Below are positions 4,420 to 34,314 of a DNA stretch of 50,046 bases, piece after piece. Position numbers and translations under genes: made by a program. The notes under the pieces were generated by a model. That model did not search any database, had not been told where the DNA came from, and saw only the letters and a program-made list of their open reading frames with translations. The first letter of the stretch is position 1. Each line of letters opens with the position of its first letter. The DNA lies in NCBI RefSeq assembly GCF_000337495.1, contig NZ_AOIS01000057.1:245194-295239 (forward strand). Direction: 5' to 3'. The DNA comes from Haloterrigena salina JCM 13891 (GTDB lineage Archaea; Halobacteriota; Halobacteria; Halobacteriales; Natrialbaceae).

Positions 4420-6189
4420 ATGAACCTTCGCGCGCCCGACCGACTCCTCCGCGTGGATCTCTCGGCGGAGTCGGTAGACCGCGTTTCCGTCCCGGACGAG
4501 TGGCGACGACGCTACGTCGGCGGCAAGGGGCTCGGAGCGCGGTACCTCTACGAGGAACTCGACGCCGATACCGATCCGCTCGAGCCGAACAACGTCCTGC
4601 TGTTCATGATCGGCCCGGTCTCGGGACTCCTTCCGGGAGAGAGTCGCTACGCGGCGATCACGAAGTCCCCGCTGACCGGGGTCTTCCTCGACTCGTACGC
4701 CGGAGGGACGTTCCCGGCAGTGCTCGCGGGCGCGTTACACGATGCTGGCGGCGTCCTCGTCACCGGCCGGGCGTCAGAGCCAGTCCGACTCGTCGTGGCG
4801 GACGGAGACGTGGATATCGAATCGGCCGAGACCTGGGGAGCAGATACCGTCACCACTGACGAGCATTTTTCCGACGCCGCGGTCGCCTGCGTCGGTCCCG
4901 CCGGGGAGAATCAGGTCGCCTACGCGACCATTTCGTCCGACGCCGGCGACCACCACGCCGGTCGGGGCGGCGCGGGCGCCGTGATGGGTGCCAAGCGACT
5001 CAAGGCCGTCGTCGCCTGGGGAGATCCCCCGTCGGGCCTCGAGAAGCTGCGCGAACGGTACGCGGAACGCTATCGCGAATCAGACACCGGGAAGTGGCTG
5101 CAAGCGAGCGGTACCCTCGAAACGGTCGACTTCGCCAACGAGACCGGCGTCCTCCCGACGCGCGGATGGCGAGACGGGCAGTTCGAGGGCGCAGACGATA
5201 TCGGCATCGCCGCCGTCCGCGAACTGGCGCGAGAGCGGGAGCACCCGGACGACGAAGATCCCGGTGGGTACCGCGTCGAGACTGACGCGGGCGAGAGCGT
5301 TCCCTGCGGTGCGACGGCGATGACGCTCGGCGCGGGTCTGGGCATCGACGATTTCGACGCCGTGGCGGAACTCGGGGCGACGTGTGACCGATTCGGTCTC
5401 GATCTGATCAGCGCCGGAAACACCGTCGCGTGGGCCGTCCGTGCCAGCGAGGCGGGCCTACTGGATCACTCGTTTACGTTCGGTGATCCCGACGACGCGC
5501 GATCACTGCTCCGCGACATCGCGACTCGAGAGACGACGCTCGGAGACACACTGGCGGAGGGAGTCGACGCGGCGGCCGAGCGGTTCGGCGGCGACGATTT
5601 CGTCCCGACGGTCAAAGCGATGGAACTGCCCGCGTACGATCCCCGGGGCGCCGAAAGCATGGCGCTGGCCTATGCCACAAGCGATCGCGGCGCCTGCCAC
5701 CGACGAGCGATCCCGATCGAGCGAGAGATCTTCGAGAACTGGAGTCCGGGGCGGGCCGCCCGCGCCGTCGCAACTGAACAGGACCAGCGATCGATTCTCT
5801 GGTGCCTGATCGTCGACGACTTCGTCGGCGACGTCTTCGAGGATCTCGGCGCCGAGTGGCTGGACGCCGTGGGGTTGGACACCGACGGAGACCTGCAGAC
5901 GATCGGGGAGCGCATCTGGACGCTCACCCGGTTGTTCAACGTTCGCGAAGGGATCGCTCGAGCGGACGACGAACTACCGATCGCGCTCCGGAAACCACTG
6001 GAGTCGGGGCCGAACGACGGGCAGGCGGTCGACGAGGACCGCTTCGAAGCGATGCTCGAGGCCTATTACGCGGAGCGGGGATGGGGAGCCGACGGTCGAC
6101 CGGCCCGCGAGACGGTCGATCGTCTCGGGTTGGACGAGGTCGTCGACGACGAGACGCCGCTGGCCGAGCAACCCATAGAACGGAAATGA
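4420..6189 (+). CDS. aldehyde:ferredoxin oxidoreductase family protein, atypical Fe-S motif
   Basis: A 589-residue member of the tungsten/molybdenum bis-pterin AOR family. Typical motifs are present: 'YVGGKGLGARYLYEEL', 'GESRYAAITKSPLTG', 'HHAGRGGAGAVMGAKRLKAV' (pterin domain) and 'RGACH' with the active-site histidine. Family members oxidise aldehydes to acids with ferredoxin as acceptor. Beside a betaine demethylation gene set, formaldehyde to formate is a plausible reaction. The protein is unusual: only five cysteines are present, and the CxxCxxxC group that binds the [4Fe-4S] cluster in characterised AORs is absent. The region reads 'ESVPCGATAMTLG', where a GPEYE-type motif is expected. 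The distal cysteine ('LWCLIVDDF') remains. The ATG at 4420 was chosen because the TATA element lies 28 bp upstream. Confidence 0.85.
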   Translation: MNLRAPDRLLRVDLSAESVDRVSVPDEWRRRYVGGKGLGARYLYEELDADTDPLEPNNVLLFMIGPVSGLLPGESRYAAITKSPLTGVFLDSYAGGTFPAVLAGALHDAGGVLVTGRASEPVRLVVADGDVDIESAETWGADTVTTDEHFSDAAVACVGPAGENQVAYATISSDAGDHHAGRGGAGAVMGAKRLKAVVAWGDPPSGLEKLRERYAERYRESDTGKWLQASGTLETVDFANETGVLPTRGWRDGQFEGADDIGIAAVRELAREREHPDDEDPGGYRVETDAGESVPCGATAMTLGAGLGIDDFDAVAELGATCDRFGLDLISAGNTVAWAVRASEAGLLDHSFTFGDPDDARSLLRDIATRETTLGDTLAEGVDAAAERFGGDDFVPTVKAMELPAYDPRGAESMALAYATSDRGACHRRAIPIEREIFENWSPGRAARAVATEQDQRSILWCLIVDDFVGDVFEDLGAEWLDAVGLDTDGDLQTIGERIWTLTRLFNVREGIARADDELPIALRKPLESGPNDGQAVDEDRFEAMLEAYYAERGWGADGRPARETVDRLGLDEVVDDETPLAEQPIERK

Positions 6190-27841: not shown

Positions 27842-28414
27842 CTATTCCTCAAGACGCTGTAGCAATTGGGCGACGTACGGACTGTCGTCCCAGCTTCGAT
27901 GCGGGCTAATCGTCGTGATCAGCGTCCTCGCTTCCGCTCGGGTTATGTGTCCGTTCCGGGCGTAGTCACAGATGAGCCGCGGCGTCGGCACGATCCGCGG
28001 TCCCTGGAGCACCGCGTGGATAAGCGGGAAGTTTGTCCCCCCAAATTCGTCGGTCAGAAAGCCGTCGATGTCGAGTGCGTTCGCGAGAACAATCCCATCG
28101 GTCTCTCCGTCATCGAGGCCGAACGTCGGCCGCGTGTTCGGTGTGTCGTCGCGCTCGTATGGATCCGCGATCGTGTAGTGGTTGCGGGCCGTGAGAACGT
28201 TGCTCGCAGCGGCGGCGTGGATGTCCTGATACTGCGTGATGTCGCGGAGTTCCGCGACGACTTCCGGTGGCACGAATGCGTCACACGACGTAAGGAGGTA
28301 CCGGAGCGGGTCCGGGACATCATCGGTGTCGGCGGCCGCGTCCGCACGGGGTACGGCGAGACTGACGAGTGCACTGGTGTCGGCAACGACCGTTCGCAGT
28401 CGCGGACCGCTCAT
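27842..28414 (-). CDS. PIN-domain protein, VapC-like toxin
   Basis: A 190-residue PIN-like nuclease. The first acidic residue is in 'VVADTSALVSLAV' near the N-terminus. The middle has 'FVPPEVVAELRDI', and the later acidic group lies in 'DDGETDGIVLANALDIDGFLTDEF'. This is the usual Asp-Glu-Asp order of metal-dependent ribonuclease toxins. The stop/start overlap (ATGA, 28411-28414) with the ribbon-helix-helix gene upstream makes a classic antitoxin-toxin operon. The C-terminal part beyond the PIN core ('PRLICDYARNGHITRAEAR') is longer than in compact VapC proteins. Its likely action is RNA cleavage when free of antitoxin; target unknown. Confidence 0.8.
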   Translation of the reverse strand: MSGPRLRTVVADTSALVSLAVPRADAAADTDDVPDPLRYLLTSCDAFVPPEVVAELRDITQYQDIHAAAASNVLTARNHYTIADPYERDDTPNTRPTFGLDDGETDGIVLANALDIDGFLTDEFGGTNFPLIHAVLQGPRIVPTPRLICDYARNGHITRAEARTLITTISPHRSWDDSPYVAQLLQRLEE

Positions 28415-28776
28415 CGATCGTCGTCTGCGGTGTCGACTGTGGTCGCGTCGTCCTCGTAGACATCGACATCATCGGGCGCGGCGAGATCGAACGGTTCGTC
28501 CTCGAGATCTGCCTTGAGCAGGCGTAGTCGCTGGGCGGTCTCAGCGCCCACCAGTTGCTTGACGGTCTCGAACTCGAGCTGGTCGTCGTAGTACTTCGTC
28601 GCGACTAACTCTTGGAAGGTCTCACTGTCGGCGGTCTCTTCGAGATACTCGCGGATAGCCTCGACGAGCAGGTCCGTTCGGTTCGTGTCGTAGAGCTCTG
28701 CAATCGCATCGAGACGTTCAACGAGATACTTGGGTGACTGGAAGTGAACCCGCCGCGGATCGTCACTCGCGCTCAT
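28411..28776 (-). CDS. ribbon-helix-helix antitoxin, VapB-like
   Basis: A 121-residue protein whose N-terminus has the ribbon-helix-helix pattern: 'RRVHFQSPKYLVERLDAIAE' then 'NRTDLLVEAIREYLEET'. An acidic C-terminal half likely embraces the toxin. I chose the ATG at 28776 over the upstream ATG at 28842: it fits the fold, and the palindromic operator at 28778-28800 would otherwise lie in the coding sequence. The toxin gene begins within its stop codon. Such antitoxins repress their own operon by binding palindromes over the promoter. Confidence 0.8.
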   Translation of the reverse strand: MSASDDPRRVHFQSPKYLVERLDAIAELYDTNRTDLLVEAIREYLEETADSETFQELVATKYYDDQLEFETVKQLVGAETAQRLRLLKADLEDEPFDLAAPDDVDVYEDDATTVDTADDDR

Positions 28777-28777
28777 T

Positions 28778-28800
28778 CTATGTGTGCATTCTGCACATAG
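28778..28800. promoter_or_regulatory. palindromic operator of the toxin-antitoxin operon
   Basis: CTATGTG and CACATAG form the outer arms, and TGTGCA-TTC-TGCACA is a perfect inverted repeat in the centre. The site lies directly before the antitoxin ATG (28776) and downstream of a TATA-like GTTATCC at about 28803-28809, so it covers the expected transcription start. This is the ideal place for autorepression by a ribbon-helix-helix protein. Confidence 0.6.
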
Positions 28801-28842
28801 ATGGATAACGGTTTCGGCGGATGCACAGGCCTTGCACACCAT

Positions 28843-29385
28843 CCCAACTCGACTACGTTGGGGTTGTCGGCGGGTAATAGCTCGTCTACCCCTCCGGCTG
28901 AATGAAGGTGATATCCTTCTATCGGACGAATCAGCGAATTGCGTTGCTGACTGTTTGGCGGCTACCCATCGCGACGAACAGGTCGACGAAACGCTCGAGA
29001 TTGGATAGGAACGCTAAGCGTCTGAGAGGATCAAAAGTCCCAGCGGGCCGGGGCAGACCCACGGGAACTGAGCGACGAGCTCGCGGTCAGGGGGAGGTGG
29101 GATGGTTGGATCGCTATGTCGCGTGGGAGAGGTACGCGACAGTAGAGATGGTCGGCGCAAGTACTATCAACCCAGCCACGATTCCAACACGCTCAGAATC
29201 GACTACGTAGACCCGGTCACTCGCGATCTCGAGGCAGTTACTCATCTGCTTGATCCGCTTGAGACGGGATCTCTCGACCCGTTGCGGGATCCTCCAGCGT
29301 GGTAACTCGGTCATACGGAAGCGATTGGATCGTGAAATAGAATATGGACATCTCAAACCTGAATAGTGGGGAATAGTTAGATTGT
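28843..29385. other. gene-poor stretch, about 540 bp
   Basis: No intact gene. A frame at 29102-29305 encodes 'GRRKYYQPSHDSN' and 'TRDLEAVTHLLDPLETGSLD' with haloarchaeal codon use. It looks like the C-terminal end of a lost protein, perhaps a helix-turn-helix regulator ending 'GRRKYY'. I cannot identify it. Confidence 0.35.
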
Positions 29386-29439
29386 TTAGAATAGTTGGTA
29401 TAGGAGAGATAGGTACAATAGGTGGAATAGGTGCGATAG
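29386..29439. repeat. array of six 9-bp repeats, left copy
   Basis: Six consecutive 9-mers of the form NNNNNATAG run without a gap (for example GTACAATAG, GTGGAATAG, GTGCGATAG). Two further GAATAG words lie just upstream (29361-29376). The reverse complement matches the array at 32631-32702, so the two arrays face each other across the orc1 region. Nine-base phasing is short of one helical turn. Candidate roles are a centromere (parS) or a site for an origin- or partition-linked protein. Confidence 0.65.
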
Positions 29440-29540
29440 CCCCCTATTGGAGCGAATGCCAGCGACAGGACAGTATCGTTCTGAAGGAGAATGGATAGCG
29501 GGAACGGTTCAATAACTCGACGACGGTGAAAAGTTACGTC

Positions 29541-29928: not shown

Positions 29929-30163
29929 CCCCCCGTGTGCGATATGAATTGGCCGCGGTCGAACGGATGGGACACCGTGTGAGAGATGAATTGGTTGCGA
30001 TCGAGCGAACGAGACCCCGTGTGCGAGATGAATTAGCCTCGGTTGGAAGGGTAACACCCCGTGTGCGAGATGAATCGACTGCGGGCGAACGAATGAGACC
30101 CCATGTGCGAGATGAATTTCGGGGTTCGCTCAGGGTAGGCCCCGTGTGCGATATGAATTGGAT
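29929..30163. repeat. origin-type repeats: six copies at 41-42 bp spacing (plus one weak copy)
   Basis: The unit CCGTGTGCGAGATGAAT occurs in the same orientation, starting at 29933, 29975, 30017, 30059, 30101 and 30142. Intervals are 42, 42, 42, 42 and 41 bp, that is, four helical turns. A degenerate copy begins near 30203. Spacers also share a pattern (GCGGTCGAACGAATGAGA-like), so this is an imperfect 42-bp tandem repeat. The same unit occurs upstream of orc1 at 31629, 31747 and 31870 and inverted at 32232-32253. Position and sharing mark it as the binding site of the Orc1/Cdc6 protein encoded between the two groups. Confidence 0.75.
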
Positions 30164-30240: not shown

Positions 30241-31587
30241 TCAGTTCCCTTCGAAGAAGTCGTTGATCTGCGCATTGACGACGGACTCGATCAATTCTTC
30301 GTTGTTCTCGATTTCCTCGAGGCGGATATCCTCCTGCAGCGTTTCCGCGACGACCGACGGATCGTCCACGAAGGTGTACTCCTTGTGGACGCCGCTTCCG
30401 TAGCCGCGGCCGCGTTTCTCCGAGGTGACGAAGTTGTACGTCTCGGCTTCGGTCATATACCGGAGATACGAGTCGCGAGACTTCTGATCAGCATCGAGGA
30501 GATCCGCGATGTACTGGTAGACGCGAAACGCCACCGTGCTGGGAACGGCGTTGAGGTTCCGGTTCGAATAGACCGGAACGATCGCCGTCGCATAGAGGGA
30601 GAGTTTCTTTTGCGTCGAAAGCCCCTGCATTTGCGTGAGCGTCCGGTCGCGTTCGGCTTCCTTCTGGGCGTCTCGAACGTGTTCCTCGCGGACCGTCCCC
30701 TCGCCTTGTCGGTCGGCCAGTTCGCCCGCTTTTCGGAAGAGATCGATCGCTTTCCGCGCGTCCCCGTGGTCCTGTGCCGCAAACGCGGAACTGAGCGGGA
30801 TAATCCCGTCCGCGAGGACGTCGTCGCGATACGCGTCGCGGCGTCGATCCAGGATCGCCTGCAACTGATTCGCGTCGTAGTCGGGAAAGACCACGTCCTG
30901 CGGATTGAACGAACTCTCCGCTCGACCGTCGAGGTTCTCCATGAACCGCGGGTCGTTCGTCAGCGCAGCGACGGAGATGTCGCCCTCGATCCGACCGAGT
31001 TGTGAGGCTCGAGAGAGCTGGTAGAGGAGTTTCGAGTAGGCGGGTTCGTCATTCGGGTCCCGCTGGCGGCCGACCAGAAGGTCGACCTCGTCGAGAATGA
31101 TGATAACCGAATCGAAGTACTCGCTCAACAGTTCGTAGAACCGACGGAGTTTCTGATCGGTAGAGATACCGCTCTCGGGAATCTCGGCCGCAACTCCGGC
31201 CTCGGCGGCGGCGTTTTCGACGAGGCGATAGACGGCACGGTCGTGGGATTTGATCGTCTGACAGTTGATCTGGACGACGCCGAACCGGATGTCTTGGGCC
31301 GTCGCGAGGTCGGAGACCTGTTCGCAGACGGCGTTGATGATCAGCGACTTGCCGGTTCCCGACGGGCCGTAGAGGAGCATGTTCGGCGGGCGATTGCTCT
31401 GAAGGATCGGTCGGAGATACGTGATGATATCGTCCAACTGTTGATCGCGACCGACGATTCGATCCTCATCGATGACGGTATCTGGATCAAGCAACGCCTT
31501 CTCTCGAAAGACGGAGTTTTGTACCCCCTCCTGAAGACGACCTTTGATAGACTGGGAGAGAGACTGTTGGTCGTTGCCATCAGTCAT
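30241..31587 (-). CDS. orc1: Orc1/Cdc6 replication initiator
   Basis: A 448-residue AAA+ protein. Walker A is 'GPSGTGKS' at 74-81, Walker B is 'IIILDEVDLL' with Asp166-Glu167, sensor 1 is 'ALTNDPRF', and 'GDARKAIDLFRKAGELA' is sensor 2. The C-terminal winged helix includes 'YLRYMTEAETYNFVTSEKRG'. It binds origin repeats and loads the MCM helicase. I set the start at 31587, not at the upstream in-frame ATG (31743). The AAA+ core is complete from there, and a TATA-like ATAAATAAAT at 31611-31620 lies 28 bp upstream. Matching repeats on both sides of the gene make it the cognate initiator of this origin. Its length is somewhat above the chromosomal Orc1 proteins. Confidence 0.93.
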   Translation of the reverse strand: MTDGNDQQSLSQSIKGRLQEGVQNSVFREKALLDPDTVIDEDRIVGRDQQLDDIITYLRPILQSNRPPNMLLYGPSGTGKSLIINAVCEQVSDLATAQDIRFGVVQINCQTIKSHDRAVYRLVENAAAEAGVAAEIPESGISTDQKLRRFYELLSEYFDSVIIILDEVDLLVGRQRDPNDEPAYSKLLYQLSRASQLGRIEGDISVAALTNDPRFMENLDGRAESSFNPQDVVFPDYDANQLQAILDRRRDAYRDDVLADGIIPLSSAFAAQDHGDARKAIDLFRKAGELADRQGEGTVREEHVRDAQKEAERDRTLTQMQGLSTQKKLSLYATAIVPVYSNRNLNAVPSTVAFRVYQYIADLLDADQKSRDSYLRYMTEAETYNFVTSEKRGRGYGSGVHKEYTFVDDPSVVAETLQEDIRLEEIENNEELIESVVNAQINDFFEGN

Positions 31588-31604
31588 AGTATCGGAATAA
31601 CGGC

Positions 31605-31620
31605 CAGCCCATAAATAAAT
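31605..31620 (-). promoter_or_regulatory. TATA box of orc1
   Basis: The plus-strand ATAAATAAAT (31611-31620) reads ATTTATTTAT on the minus strand and is centred 28 bp from the ATG at 31587. This implies a leaderless transcript and decides the start. The origin-type repeat at 31629 abuts it, so Orc1 may repress its own gene. Confidence 0.5.
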
Positions 31621-31628
31621 GTGGGATA

Positions 31629-31895
31629 CCGTGTGCGAGGTTAAATGTAGAAGAATGTCGAGATAGAAGCCTTCTATCGCAGGATGGTTAGATAGTCCGA
31701 TAACCGTGGGCAAAATCAAACCGGACTGAATGCGGGATGGCACACCCCGTGTGCGAAATGAAATCCGTCTCGACCGATCGGGTGCAAGTCTGAAAGCGGA
31801 TCACAAGGGGAGAAGAGTAGATCAGAGGGAGAAACATAGTTATGGAGAAGGGAATCGAACCCCCTCCCCCCGTGTGCGAGATGAAATCCGTTCGA
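31629..31895. repeat. origin-type repeats upstream of orc1 (three plus-orientation copies)
   Basis: Copies begin at 31629 (CCGTGTGCGAGG, partial), 31747 and 31870. The latter two share the longer form CCGTGTGCGARATGAAATCCG. Unlike the array downstream of orc1 they are spaced by about 120 bp. With the inverted copy at 32232-32253 they bracket the AT-rich core. Confidence 0.65.
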
Positions 31896-32092: not shown

Positions 32093-32231
32093 TCGTCGAA
32101 GAAGATTCTTAGCGTAACCAAATCTCGAGCACGGCGTTTTAGCAACTCATAGTAGCTAAAGCAGGATTCTAGAAACTCTTCCCAACTTCAGCCCTTCCGA
32201 TCTCGATCAACGGTCCCCTCTCGGTCTCACC

Positions 32232-32253
32232 GATTTCATTTCGCACACGGGGT
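32232..32253 (-). repeat. inverted origin-type repeat
   Basis: On the plus strand the sequence reads GATTTCATTTCGCACACGGG. Its reverse complement is the origin unit CCCGTGTGCGAAATGAAATC. It faces the plus-orientation copies at 31747 and 31870 across the AT-rich core, giving the convergent arrangement expected of an origin. Confidence 0.65.
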
Positions 32254-32630
32254 GGGGGTGTCCCCTCACTACTCATCTCTTCCTCTCTTTCCAAGGGCTC
32301 TTCTCGAAAGGAGGTTTCCCTAGATACGTTGGAGTCGACTATGTTGTGATCCTCGCCGCTCTCCGTATCGATCCAGGCTCTCGGTGAGTCCGTTGATTTC
32401 CGTCTTGAATAATAGTTGTCTGAGGTCGGTAATCACGCTCGAGACTTCCCTCGAGTTCCAGCCCTGCGTTCCTGTGATTAATCCTCGGAAATGGTAATAG
32501 AGAAATAGTGCAGCATGGTCTCCACCTCTGATGACTTCGTTGCTCGATTCTTCACTTACTACTACCATCTTGGACGGATATCTCCCTACAATAGGTACCT
32601 TTCTTCCAATAGGTTCTTCCCCCACCTTCC

Positions 32631-32702
32631 CTATTACACCTACCGGGGCTATCTGTGCTATTGCACCTATTCTTCCTATTGCACCTATTCAACCTACCTT
32701 AG
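32631..32702. repeat. array of eight 9-bp repeats, right copy
   Basis: Eight adjacent 9-mers start with CTAT or CTAC (for example CTATTGCAC twice, CTATTCTTC, CTATTCAAC). They run without gap just upstream of parA. More AATAGG words lie on both sides (about 32588-32615 and 32780). The array is the reverse complement type of the one at 29386-29439. The location between origin and parA suggests a partition site or parA operator. Confidence 0.65.
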
Positions 32703-32815
32703 TTCCAGTAGGTAGAATTAAGGTTCTATAGCAGAATCTAATCACCACCGGCTGAAATAGAACAATTCAGAACAATAGGTCCCTATTCCGGCCCTCTCAG
32801 CGGGTGAACGCGATA

Positions 32816-33706
32816 ATGAACGACACAACGTCCGAGCCACGCGCCGTAAGCGTGGTCATCCTGAAAGGTGGCGTCGGCAAATCAACGACCTCGATGAATC
32901 TGGCTCGTCAACTCGCCGAGCGCGGAACGACCCTCTTCGCCGACCTCGACCCGAACGGTCACGCGACGAACGGTCTCGGCTTCGAGGACGCGTACCAGGG
33001 CGAGACCAATCTCGGGGACGTCATTCTCGAGGGGACGGCGACTCCCCACGACCTGATTCGCCCGACCGATCACGGGTTCGATCTCCTCCCGTCGTCGGAT
33101 ACGCTCGAGGACGTCGAGAAAGACCTCGCGGGCGCGATGCAGGGTTCGGCGCGAATCAAGTCGAAGATCGTCGATCCGCTGCTGGGCGACGAGTACGACT
33201 ACGTGGTCTTCGACTGTCCGGCGTATCCGGGGATGCTCAACAACAATGCACTCGTCGCGACGGGGAACGTGATGATCCCGATCGAACCCGGCTCGAGTGC
33301 GATCGGTGGCTACAAGCGAACGATGGAACGGCTCATCGAGCCGGCGCGGGAGTACATCGACGTCGACGTCCTCGCCGTCGTGCCGAACAAACTCGGTGAC
33401 CGAATCGATCAACAGACCGAGGACCGAGAACTCCTCGAGAATCTGAACACCGCGACCTACGAGGTCAATCCCGATCAGCCGCTGCAGGAAGCGGTGCCGG
33501 AGTTCGCCCGGATCACGGCGGAGGAGTTCGACGAGATCGACGCCGGCGAGATGACGCCACCGAAGCCGGGCATCCGCCATCGGTCGGCGCTGTCGCGATC
33601 CTTACAGCACAACCAACCGCTGCAGGATTACGACCCGGAGAACGACCAGATCGCCTGTTACGAGCAACTCGCCGAAATCGTCGCCGCCGGAGGGATCGAG
33701 CGATGA
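32816..33706 (+). CDS. parA: ParA-type partition ATPase
   Basis: A 296-residue deviant-Walker ATPase. 'KGGVGKST' at 17-24 has the signature first lysine. 'FADLDPNGHATNGLG' is the second Asp motif, and 'YDYVVFDCPAYPGMLNNNAL' is Walker B-like. Related proteins segregate plasmids and secondary chromosomes by forming gradients on nucleoid DNA. The ATG at 32816 is preferred over GTG 32804 because the conserved part begins just after. The 9-bp array upstream is a candidate centromere or operator. Its stop overlaps the next gene by four bases (ATGA). No ParB is visible; the overlapping acidic protein takes that place. Confidence 0.92.
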   Translation: MNDTTSEPRAVSVVILKGGVGKSTTSMNLARQLAERGTTLFADLDPNGHATNGLGFEDAYQGETNLGDVILEGTATPHDLIRPTDHGFDLLPSSDTLEDVEKDLAGAMQGSARIKSKIVDPLLGDEYDYVVFDCPAYPGMLNNNALVATGNVMIPIEPGSSAIGGYKRTMERLIEPAREYIDVDVLAVVPNKLGDRIDQQTEDRELLENLNTATYEVNPDQPLQEAVPEFARITAEEFDEIDAGEMTPPKPGIRHRSALSRSLQHNQPLQDYDPENDQIACYEQLAEIVAAGGIER

Positions 33707-34314
33707 GCAACCCGTTCGACGATCTCAAGGAAACCGAAACGGAGTCGCCCGAGTCGGACGATTCAGAGACTCCTGAGAACGATCCGGAGGCACCTGAAGA
33801 CAATCCGGAACCGATCGGGAACGACTCGGAGACGTCCGATACTGAATCCGCGACCGCGGTCGAGTCGACGACCGACGTCGCGGACGCTCCGACCGCTCGC
33901 TCGACGGAAACGCCCACCGAATCGTCGACGGTGGCAACTCCCGACACGAGTACGAGCAATGAATCTACGTCGGAGACGAGCGCCGAACCGGTCGCGGACA
34001 CGCCCGTTGACCGCAGCGAACCCACTGAGTCCGAGTCTGAATCGGATGCCGCCGAACCGGTCTCGCCCGCGGAGACGGGGCCGGCGTTCGAATACAGCGC
34101 GGTCAAACAGAAGCCGTTCTACGCTCGGAACGAGACGGTAGCCGAATTCGAGAACGCGATCCGGACGACGATCCTCCCGACGCTCGCCCGAGCGGAGGTG
34201 CTCGACGAGGAAACCCGCGAGATTCACGATGCGGTGCTCCGCCTGGCGAACGAACAGCCGGAACGGGTCGCCGAACTCGTGCTCGAAGAGCGGCGCCGGT
34301 CCGGTGAACCGTAA
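33703..34314 (+). CDS. acidic ParA-partner protein, unknown family
   Basis: A 203-residue protein translated from a start overlapping the parA stop. The first 125 residues or so are a disordered acidic Thr/Ser/Glu/Asp/Pro-rich tract. The C-terminal 75 residues look folded and helical: 'FEYSAVKQKPFYARNETVAE', 'TTILPTLARAEVLDEETREI' and 'LVLEERRRSGEP'. I see no ParB/KorB or ribbon-helix-helix motif. In haloarchaeal plasmids the gene after parA is often such a hypothetical. By position it is the adaptor that links ParA to DNA, perhaps through the C-terminal part, but this is inference. It could be DNA-binding through the basic 'EERRR' tail. Confidence 0.75.
   Translation: MSNPFDDLKETETESPESDDSETPENDPEAPEDNPEPIGNDSETSDTESATAVESTTDVADAPTARSTETPTESSTVATPDTSTSNESTSETSAEPVADTPVDRSEPTESESESDAAEPVSPAETGPAFEYSAVKQKPFYARNETVAEFENAIRTTILPTLARAEVLDEETREIHDAVLRLANEQPERVAELVLEERRRSGEP

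Follow-up and report, generated by a model that had tools for sequence, protein, structure and literature searches.

Probable centromere-binding partner of ParA and associated 9-bp repeat arrays in haloarchaeal plasmids

Introduction

The locus analysed in this work, located on a contig of Haloterrigena salina JCM 13891, raises the question of what is encoded by a gene that occupies the position of parB behind parA, and of what reads the 9-bp repeat arrays found beside the two genes. Haloarchaea are polyploid and rich in megaplasmids. In a review of archaeal segregation, the centromeres of archaeal chromosomes and plasmids were counted among the outstanding questions (PMC5120986). A first-pass annotation, made from the sequence and a list of its open reading frames, described the product of the gene as a ParA partner that is not ParB, and suggested that it could be a new class of centromere-binding adaptor recognizing the arrays. 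Here we report a computational analysis of this proposal. The term window denotes the whole stretch of 50,046 nucleotides that was analysed, and positions are given within it.

Results

Organization of the locus

The features of the locus are listed in Table 1. The host genome comprises 4.84 Mb in 71 contigs, and Haloterrigena salifodinae plasmid pHTS280.6 is the closest named relative at this locus (97.8% across the C-terminal 90 residues). A GTG at 32804 is a possible alternative start of parA, and the relatives, whose genes are annotated 'ParA family protein', start at an ATG matching that at 32816. The encoded ATPase has a deviant Walker A motif and, as judged by Pfam, its domain begins at the N-terminus of the protein, without an N-terminal HTH. 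At L058, L059, L063 and L086-L088 the Walker A motif of ParA is altered (KGGFAKTT and KGGTTKST versus KGGxGKST).

The orc1/cdc6 gene is on the strand opposite to parA, and an intergenic stretch of about 1 kb lies between the two. Further repeats of the CCCCGTGTGCGAGATGAAT type are found at 31745-31891 (copies at 31745 and 31868), and there is an inverted copy at 32229-32254. These repeats flank orc1 on both sides, have G-rich ends and are inverted between the sides, resembling the ORB elements of origins. Two overlapping genes beside the origin (27842-28842, minus strand) possibly form a toxin-antitoxin pair; the first encodes a small protein with a weak match to RHH_1 (E 0.0027, below Pfam's cut-off), and the second a PIN-like protein for which Pfam gave no match at 0.01. 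Downstream of the partner gene there are genes for a PadR-like and an Lrp-like regulator, which are also present in relatives.

Table 1. Features of the parA locus in the window
Feature	Position	Strand	Description
9-bp array 2	29371..29448		ATAGG-N4 units, on the far side of orc1
ORB-like CCCCGTGTGCGAGATGAAT-type repeats	29935..30160		Sequence distinct from the 9-bp arrays
orc1/cdc6 replication initiator	30241..31743	-	NCBIfam TIGR02928, E=5.9e-114; same replicon module
9-bp array 1	32586..32790		Upstream of parA; proposed centromere and operator
parA	32816..33706	+	Walker ATPase, KGGVGKST; Pfam AAA_31, E=1.3e-29, and CbiA
parA partner gene	33703..34314	+	ATG start, 203 aa; proposed centromere-binding protein
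N-terminal motif MSNPFDDL (Fxx[LIV])	33703..33726	+	Proposed ParA contact
Acidic S/T/E/D/P-rich linker	33727..34065	+	Defined by composition and charge; length varies between members
C-terminal domain, ~75 residues	34066..34311	+	AlphaFold2 pLDDT 89.4, pTM 0.72; alignments A2/A3

Anatomy and predicted structure of the partner protein

As the first-pass annotation had stated, the partner gene overlaps parA by four bases (the shared ATGA), and its product is not ParB: no match to a ParB/Srx or HTH domain was found in Pfam or NCBIfam. Searches of Pfam, NCBIfam, PHROGs and the PDB sequences did not provide a name for the protein. At its extreme N-terminus there is a conserved motif, which had been overlooked in the annotation. 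F-x-x-[LIV] occurs within the first 20 residues in 44 of the 47 non-redundant family members, as compared with 1 in 1893 linker positions, the commonest variants being NPFDDL, GFDDL, DPFADL and RFAGL. Behind the motif follows the acidic low-complexity region, which is present as described earlier, although it spans residues ~9-121 and is thus slightly shorter than the 125 residues assigned to it. Since it is preceded by the motif and followed by a folded domain, it is an internal linker and not a tail. Residues 13-118 (106 aa) contain E20, T19, S19, P12, D12 and A11 and have a net charge of -30. The linkers of the family are rich in E, S, D, T, A and P, and the whole proteins are 112-204 aa long.

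The consensus of the C-terminal domain is PAFxYxxVxQxPxYARxETWxxFED...LR..xVRD..kRExHDAxLRLA.e.PE..AE..LE.R. Structure prediction bore out the folded C-terminal part that the annotation had anticipated: AlphaFold2, run as a monomer on an alignment of 45 members from which the rows from plasmid records were left out, returned a confident helical domain, in which an extended segment (KQKPFYAR) is followed by helices at domain residues 22-42, 50-63 and 65-79. A strand that needs a partner chain shows as 'extended' in a monomer, and therefore the model agrees with a ribbon-helix-helix (RHH)-like dimer, being compatible with such a fold without demonstrating it. Foldseek comparison of the domain with PDB and BFVD gave no structural match, no RHH family was among the Pfam matches of 50 members, and a search of PDB sequences with the family profile returned no RHH and no SegB chain. 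The description of the C-terminal end as basic applies to the arginines in ...LVLEERRRSGEP, but not to the C-terminal 85 residues, which are net acidic (-6). One C-terminal arginine is invariant across the family (R76 of alignment A3). Haloarchaeal proteins are acidic in general.

Distribution of the family and gene order

The partner protein is not isolated but belongs to a widespread family. By profile search, the family was detected in at least 199 of the 391 sampled genomes and 56 of the 86 genera of the class; these counts are minima, since scoring was limited to 14 candidates in each genome. In a phylum-wide sample the sole match outside the class was marginal (E 3.8e-4, in a 708-codon frame) and is probably due to chance. 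A search with the last 90 residues yielded 97 haloarchaeal plasmid records, in which the product, where annotated, is a 'hypothetical protein'. The family is mostly plasmid-borne, with members in Haloferax mediterranei and on pNRC100 of Halobacterium salinarum, both of which serve as laboratory strains. In three species of one genus (G278, G175 and G251, contig C1) the module is located on a chromosome-sized contig, and in each of them a second 9-bp array is found ~58-61 kb away.

The order parA-partner is constant in the annotated plasmids, and parA is directly upstream of the partner gene in 95 of the 97 scanned loci, some of which are repeat copies of one locus. One of the two exceptions, on PL100 of Haloquadratum walsbyi (L023, ~5001-5261), is a C-terminal domain remnant that stands alone, with no parA, and probably reflects decay of the module. 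In the other (L072, 2953-3402) the C-terminal domain of the partner is fused with an HNH nuclease domain, an arrangement that would suit a module targeting DNA.

We found no description of the partner family or of the 9-bp arrays in the open-licence literature. The designation 'new class' holds for the sequence family, for which there is no Pfam or NCBIfam model. It does not extend to the plan of the protein, which matches that of the small RHH partners omega, ParG and SegB.

The 9-bp arrays in the window and on the host replicon

The 9-bp arrays reported next to parA were confirmed by a three-unit pattern, which had 8 matches in the window and none in 100 shuffles. The lag-9 autocorrelation was reached by 2 of 5000 shuffles at site 1 and by 0 of 5000 at site 2. 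Array 1 has a core of 8 contiguous CTAYY-N4 units (32631-32702) and contains further AATAGG words in both orientations. When the 4.84-Mb host genome was searched with a four-unit pattern, it was found at two places only, both in the window. In the complete pHTS280.6 (280,619 bp), three-unit arrays are located at 147.4 kb (parA), 6.1 kb and 234.9 kb, the one at 6.1 kb being ~141 kb from the parA array; control patterns had no matches. Among relatives with few contigs, every listed array of G116, G120, G137, G181, G192, G242, G247, G255 and G271 is on a contig that carries a family member, whereas G032 is a counter-example. The host has a second copy of the module (contig C54; L002/L095), with an upstream array of its own built from a different word, of the ACCGT type. 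Such a difference in array words would be anticipated if the two modules are systems that coexist compatibly in the same cell.

Periodicity across the family

Upstream of parA, the top autocorrelation lag was a multiple of 9 in 44 of the 47 non-redundant loci, as compared with 31% of 940 control windows, a value to which the 3-bp periodicity of coding DNA contributes. Averaged over these loci, the autocorrelation in the 300 bp upstream of parA was 0.382, 0.362, 0.339 and 0.328 at lags 9, 18, 27 and 36, and about 0.25 at most other lags; 3 of the 47 loci were without a clear lag-9 signal. The repeat word is clade-specific (AATAGG, AATAGC, CTTAGC, ATAGAA, ACCGT and others), and the cross-clade consensus of the 9-bp unit is rTAGsTrnr. 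The dyad symmetry of the unit is weak, with a mean of 0.50 versus 0.39 (sd 0.18) for column shuffles. At seven parA loci with other partners (L156, L165, L166, L169, L171-L173) the top lag was never a multiple of 9.

All 8 loci with an Orc1 homologue in the stretch examined show the 9-bp signal, and so do 22 of the 25 loci in which no homologue was detected in that stretch. The possibility that the arrays are Orc1 sites was rejected, since they are retained at loci with no Orc1 homologue detected in the vicinity. In a Mantel analysis the array sequence tracked ParA (r 0.72) and the C-terminal domain (0.68) alike; therefore sequence comparison cannot name the reader of the array.

A second partner family

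A second partner family occupies the position behind parA at other haloarchaeal loci, among them those of the haloviruses phiH1, phiCh1 and ChaoS9. The halovirus records contain ParA, but in combination with this second family. Its members have the same plan and a different C-terminal domain (...YLPDxx...KNRHFYPLLV...), whose model shows the same order of elements (pLDDT 90); Foldseek found no match for it in PDB. E values of 0.0076 and 0.084, obtained with hhalign between the two families, are only suggestive of homology. The second family is associated with 9-bp arrays in 15 of 23 non-redundant loci, and no 9-bp signal was found upstream of parA in phiH1, phiCh1 and ChaoS9. In gene 255 of phiH1 (L171:3180-3614) an HNH domain is joined to the C-terminal domain of the second family, so that with L072 there is one HNH nuclease fusion per partner family.

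Discussion

The locus displays three traits of a type Ib-like ParABS system: a ParA lacking an HTH, a small partner directly downstream and a centromere-like repeat array upstream. Taken together with the comparative data, this suggests that the gene product is likely to be the DNA-binding partner in a partition system of haloarchaeal plasmids, with the arrays as the centromere, and that the members of the family are probable centromere-binding proteins of the ParA, small-partner and repeat-array kind. The tie between the ParA partner and the arrays, proposed in the annotation as an adaptor function, has gained strong comparative support from gene order, the 44 of 47 loci with 9-bp periodicity, the arrays at loci with no Orc1 homologue detected nearby and the dispersed arrays. 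The partner is favoured as the reader of the arrays because this ParA carries no domain for DNA recognition and because the domain of the partner is found again in a fusion with HNH.

In the mechanism that we envisage, the C-terminal domain, probably as a dimer, would bind one 9-bp unit each and coat the contiguous arrays, both the one upstream of parA and those at other sites of the replicon. The arrays would act as the centromere, and the parA-proximal one probably as an operator too, through which the system would regulate its own expression. The acidic linker would project the N-terminal NPFDDL motif to ParA, and contact of the motif with ParA would trigger the ATPase and thereby the spreading of plasmid copies over the nucleoid. 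The net acidic character of the C-terminal 85 residues, the negative outcome of the fold comparisons with PDB and BFVD and of the Pfam search for RHH families, the equal tracking of ParA and partner by the array sequence, the three loci without a clear lag-9 signal and the presence of 9-bp arrays at some second-family parA loci count against this explanation. So does the N-terminal motif, which is without the basic residue by which ParA is activated in several known systems.

The arrays could instead be iterons or copy-control sites read by ParA or Orc1, with the partner regulating ParA without binding DNA. Such an arrangement would fit the position of the arrays, which adjoin parA and, in the window, lie near orc1, as well as the correlation of array sequence with ParA divergence. 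We consider it unlikely, since the array is still present at most loci where no Orc1 homologue was detected within the stretch examined, the ORB-like repeats beside orc1 are of different sequence, ParA begins shortly ahead of its Walker A motif and lacks an HTH, and there is a protein in which the partner domain is fused to an HNH nuclease. Similarly improbable is a protein that acts mainly in copy control, repressing transcription of parA or the replication module, partition being secondary or absent. Many small DNA-binding proteins of this type are repressors of their own operon, and promoters are expected between orc1 and parA, where array 1 is situated; a function restricted to repression is nevertheless difficult to reconcile with the strict coupling to a ParA ATPase, with an N-terminal motif conserved at the end of a long linker, and with the further arrays that the same plasmids carry at a great distance from parA, such as the one at 6.1 kb on pHTS280.6. 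A dual role in repression and partition, by analogy with omega, fits better.

It is also conceivable that the ParA pair positions a cargo other than DNA, in the manner of McdA/McdB or of CheW-linked ParA. Cargo adaptors of ParA do exist in haloarchaea, as other ParA genes are followed by genes for CheW-domain proteins (L165, L169). Taking into account that the present family is mostly plasmid-borne, is here encoded beside a replication initiator and is coupled to DNA arrays, this reading appears very improbable. In L165:266-1414 and L169:1-1098 the CheW-domain protein behind parA has a long disordered N-terminus, and the pair is a possible ParA system for chemotaxis arrays.

Of the partition systems compared with the proposed plasmid module, delta/omega of pSM19035 is the best precedent. 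Dimers of omega have been reported to bind at six sites where 7-10 contiguous 7-bp repeats overlap par promoters; activation of ParA requires 4 or more contiguous repeats, and the unstructured N-terminus of omega contacts ParA (PMC4498918, PMC9499535). By analogy, the haloarchaeal module would follow the same logic with a 9-bp pitch. The delta2/omega2 system (SegB2 locus, type Ib, RHH ParB) shares with it an HTH-less ParA, a small partner, multiple array sites on one plasmid, contiguous arrays of short period that overlap par promoters and an unstructured N-terminus that contacts ParA (PMC4498918, PMC9499535), the last of these being proposed for the haloarchaeal protein. In contrast to delta2/omega2, the haloarchaeal period is 9 bp instead of 7 bp, the acidic linker is longer, and the C-terminal domain is larger, its first helix being long and a third helix being present; no sequence or Foldseek match between omega and the haloarchaeal partner was detectable. 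Like ParG of the ParF/ParG system of TP228, the partner would combine a disordered N-terminus with a small C-terminal DNA-binding part, a dimer in ParG; unlike the partner, ParG is an RHH protein with short helices and without a long acidic linker, and no sequence relation between the two was found. SegAB of Sulfolobales and Euryarchaeota is likewise archaeal, with a ParA gene that overlaps the start of the partner gene and a small site-specific DNA-binding partner, but the sites of SegB are scattered 13-bp palindromes with the core AGA(g/c)TCT that serve chromosomes (PMC12284271), whereas those found here are 9-bp arrays. The parA-partner genes of phiH1, phiCh1 and ChaoS9 share the position behind parA (8-bp overlap) and the plan of the protein, and differ in the partner family and in the missing upstream 9-bp signal.

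A bolder reading is that the C-terminal domain has a new DNA-binding fold, other than RHH, that forms a filament on the 9-bp arrays, that ParA is contacted by the acidic F-[DA]-[DG]-L in place of a basic finger, and that both partner families represent a haloarchaeal mode of plasmid segregation distinct from ParB, SegB and omega. This we regard as doubtful, though worth keeping in mind; categorical novelty would require a fold other than RHH.

The partner protein and its proposed 9-bp centromere provide a concrete candidate for replicon segregation in about half of the sampled haloarchaeal genomes. If the proposal is true, a function would be assigned to a large family of 'hypothetical proteins'.
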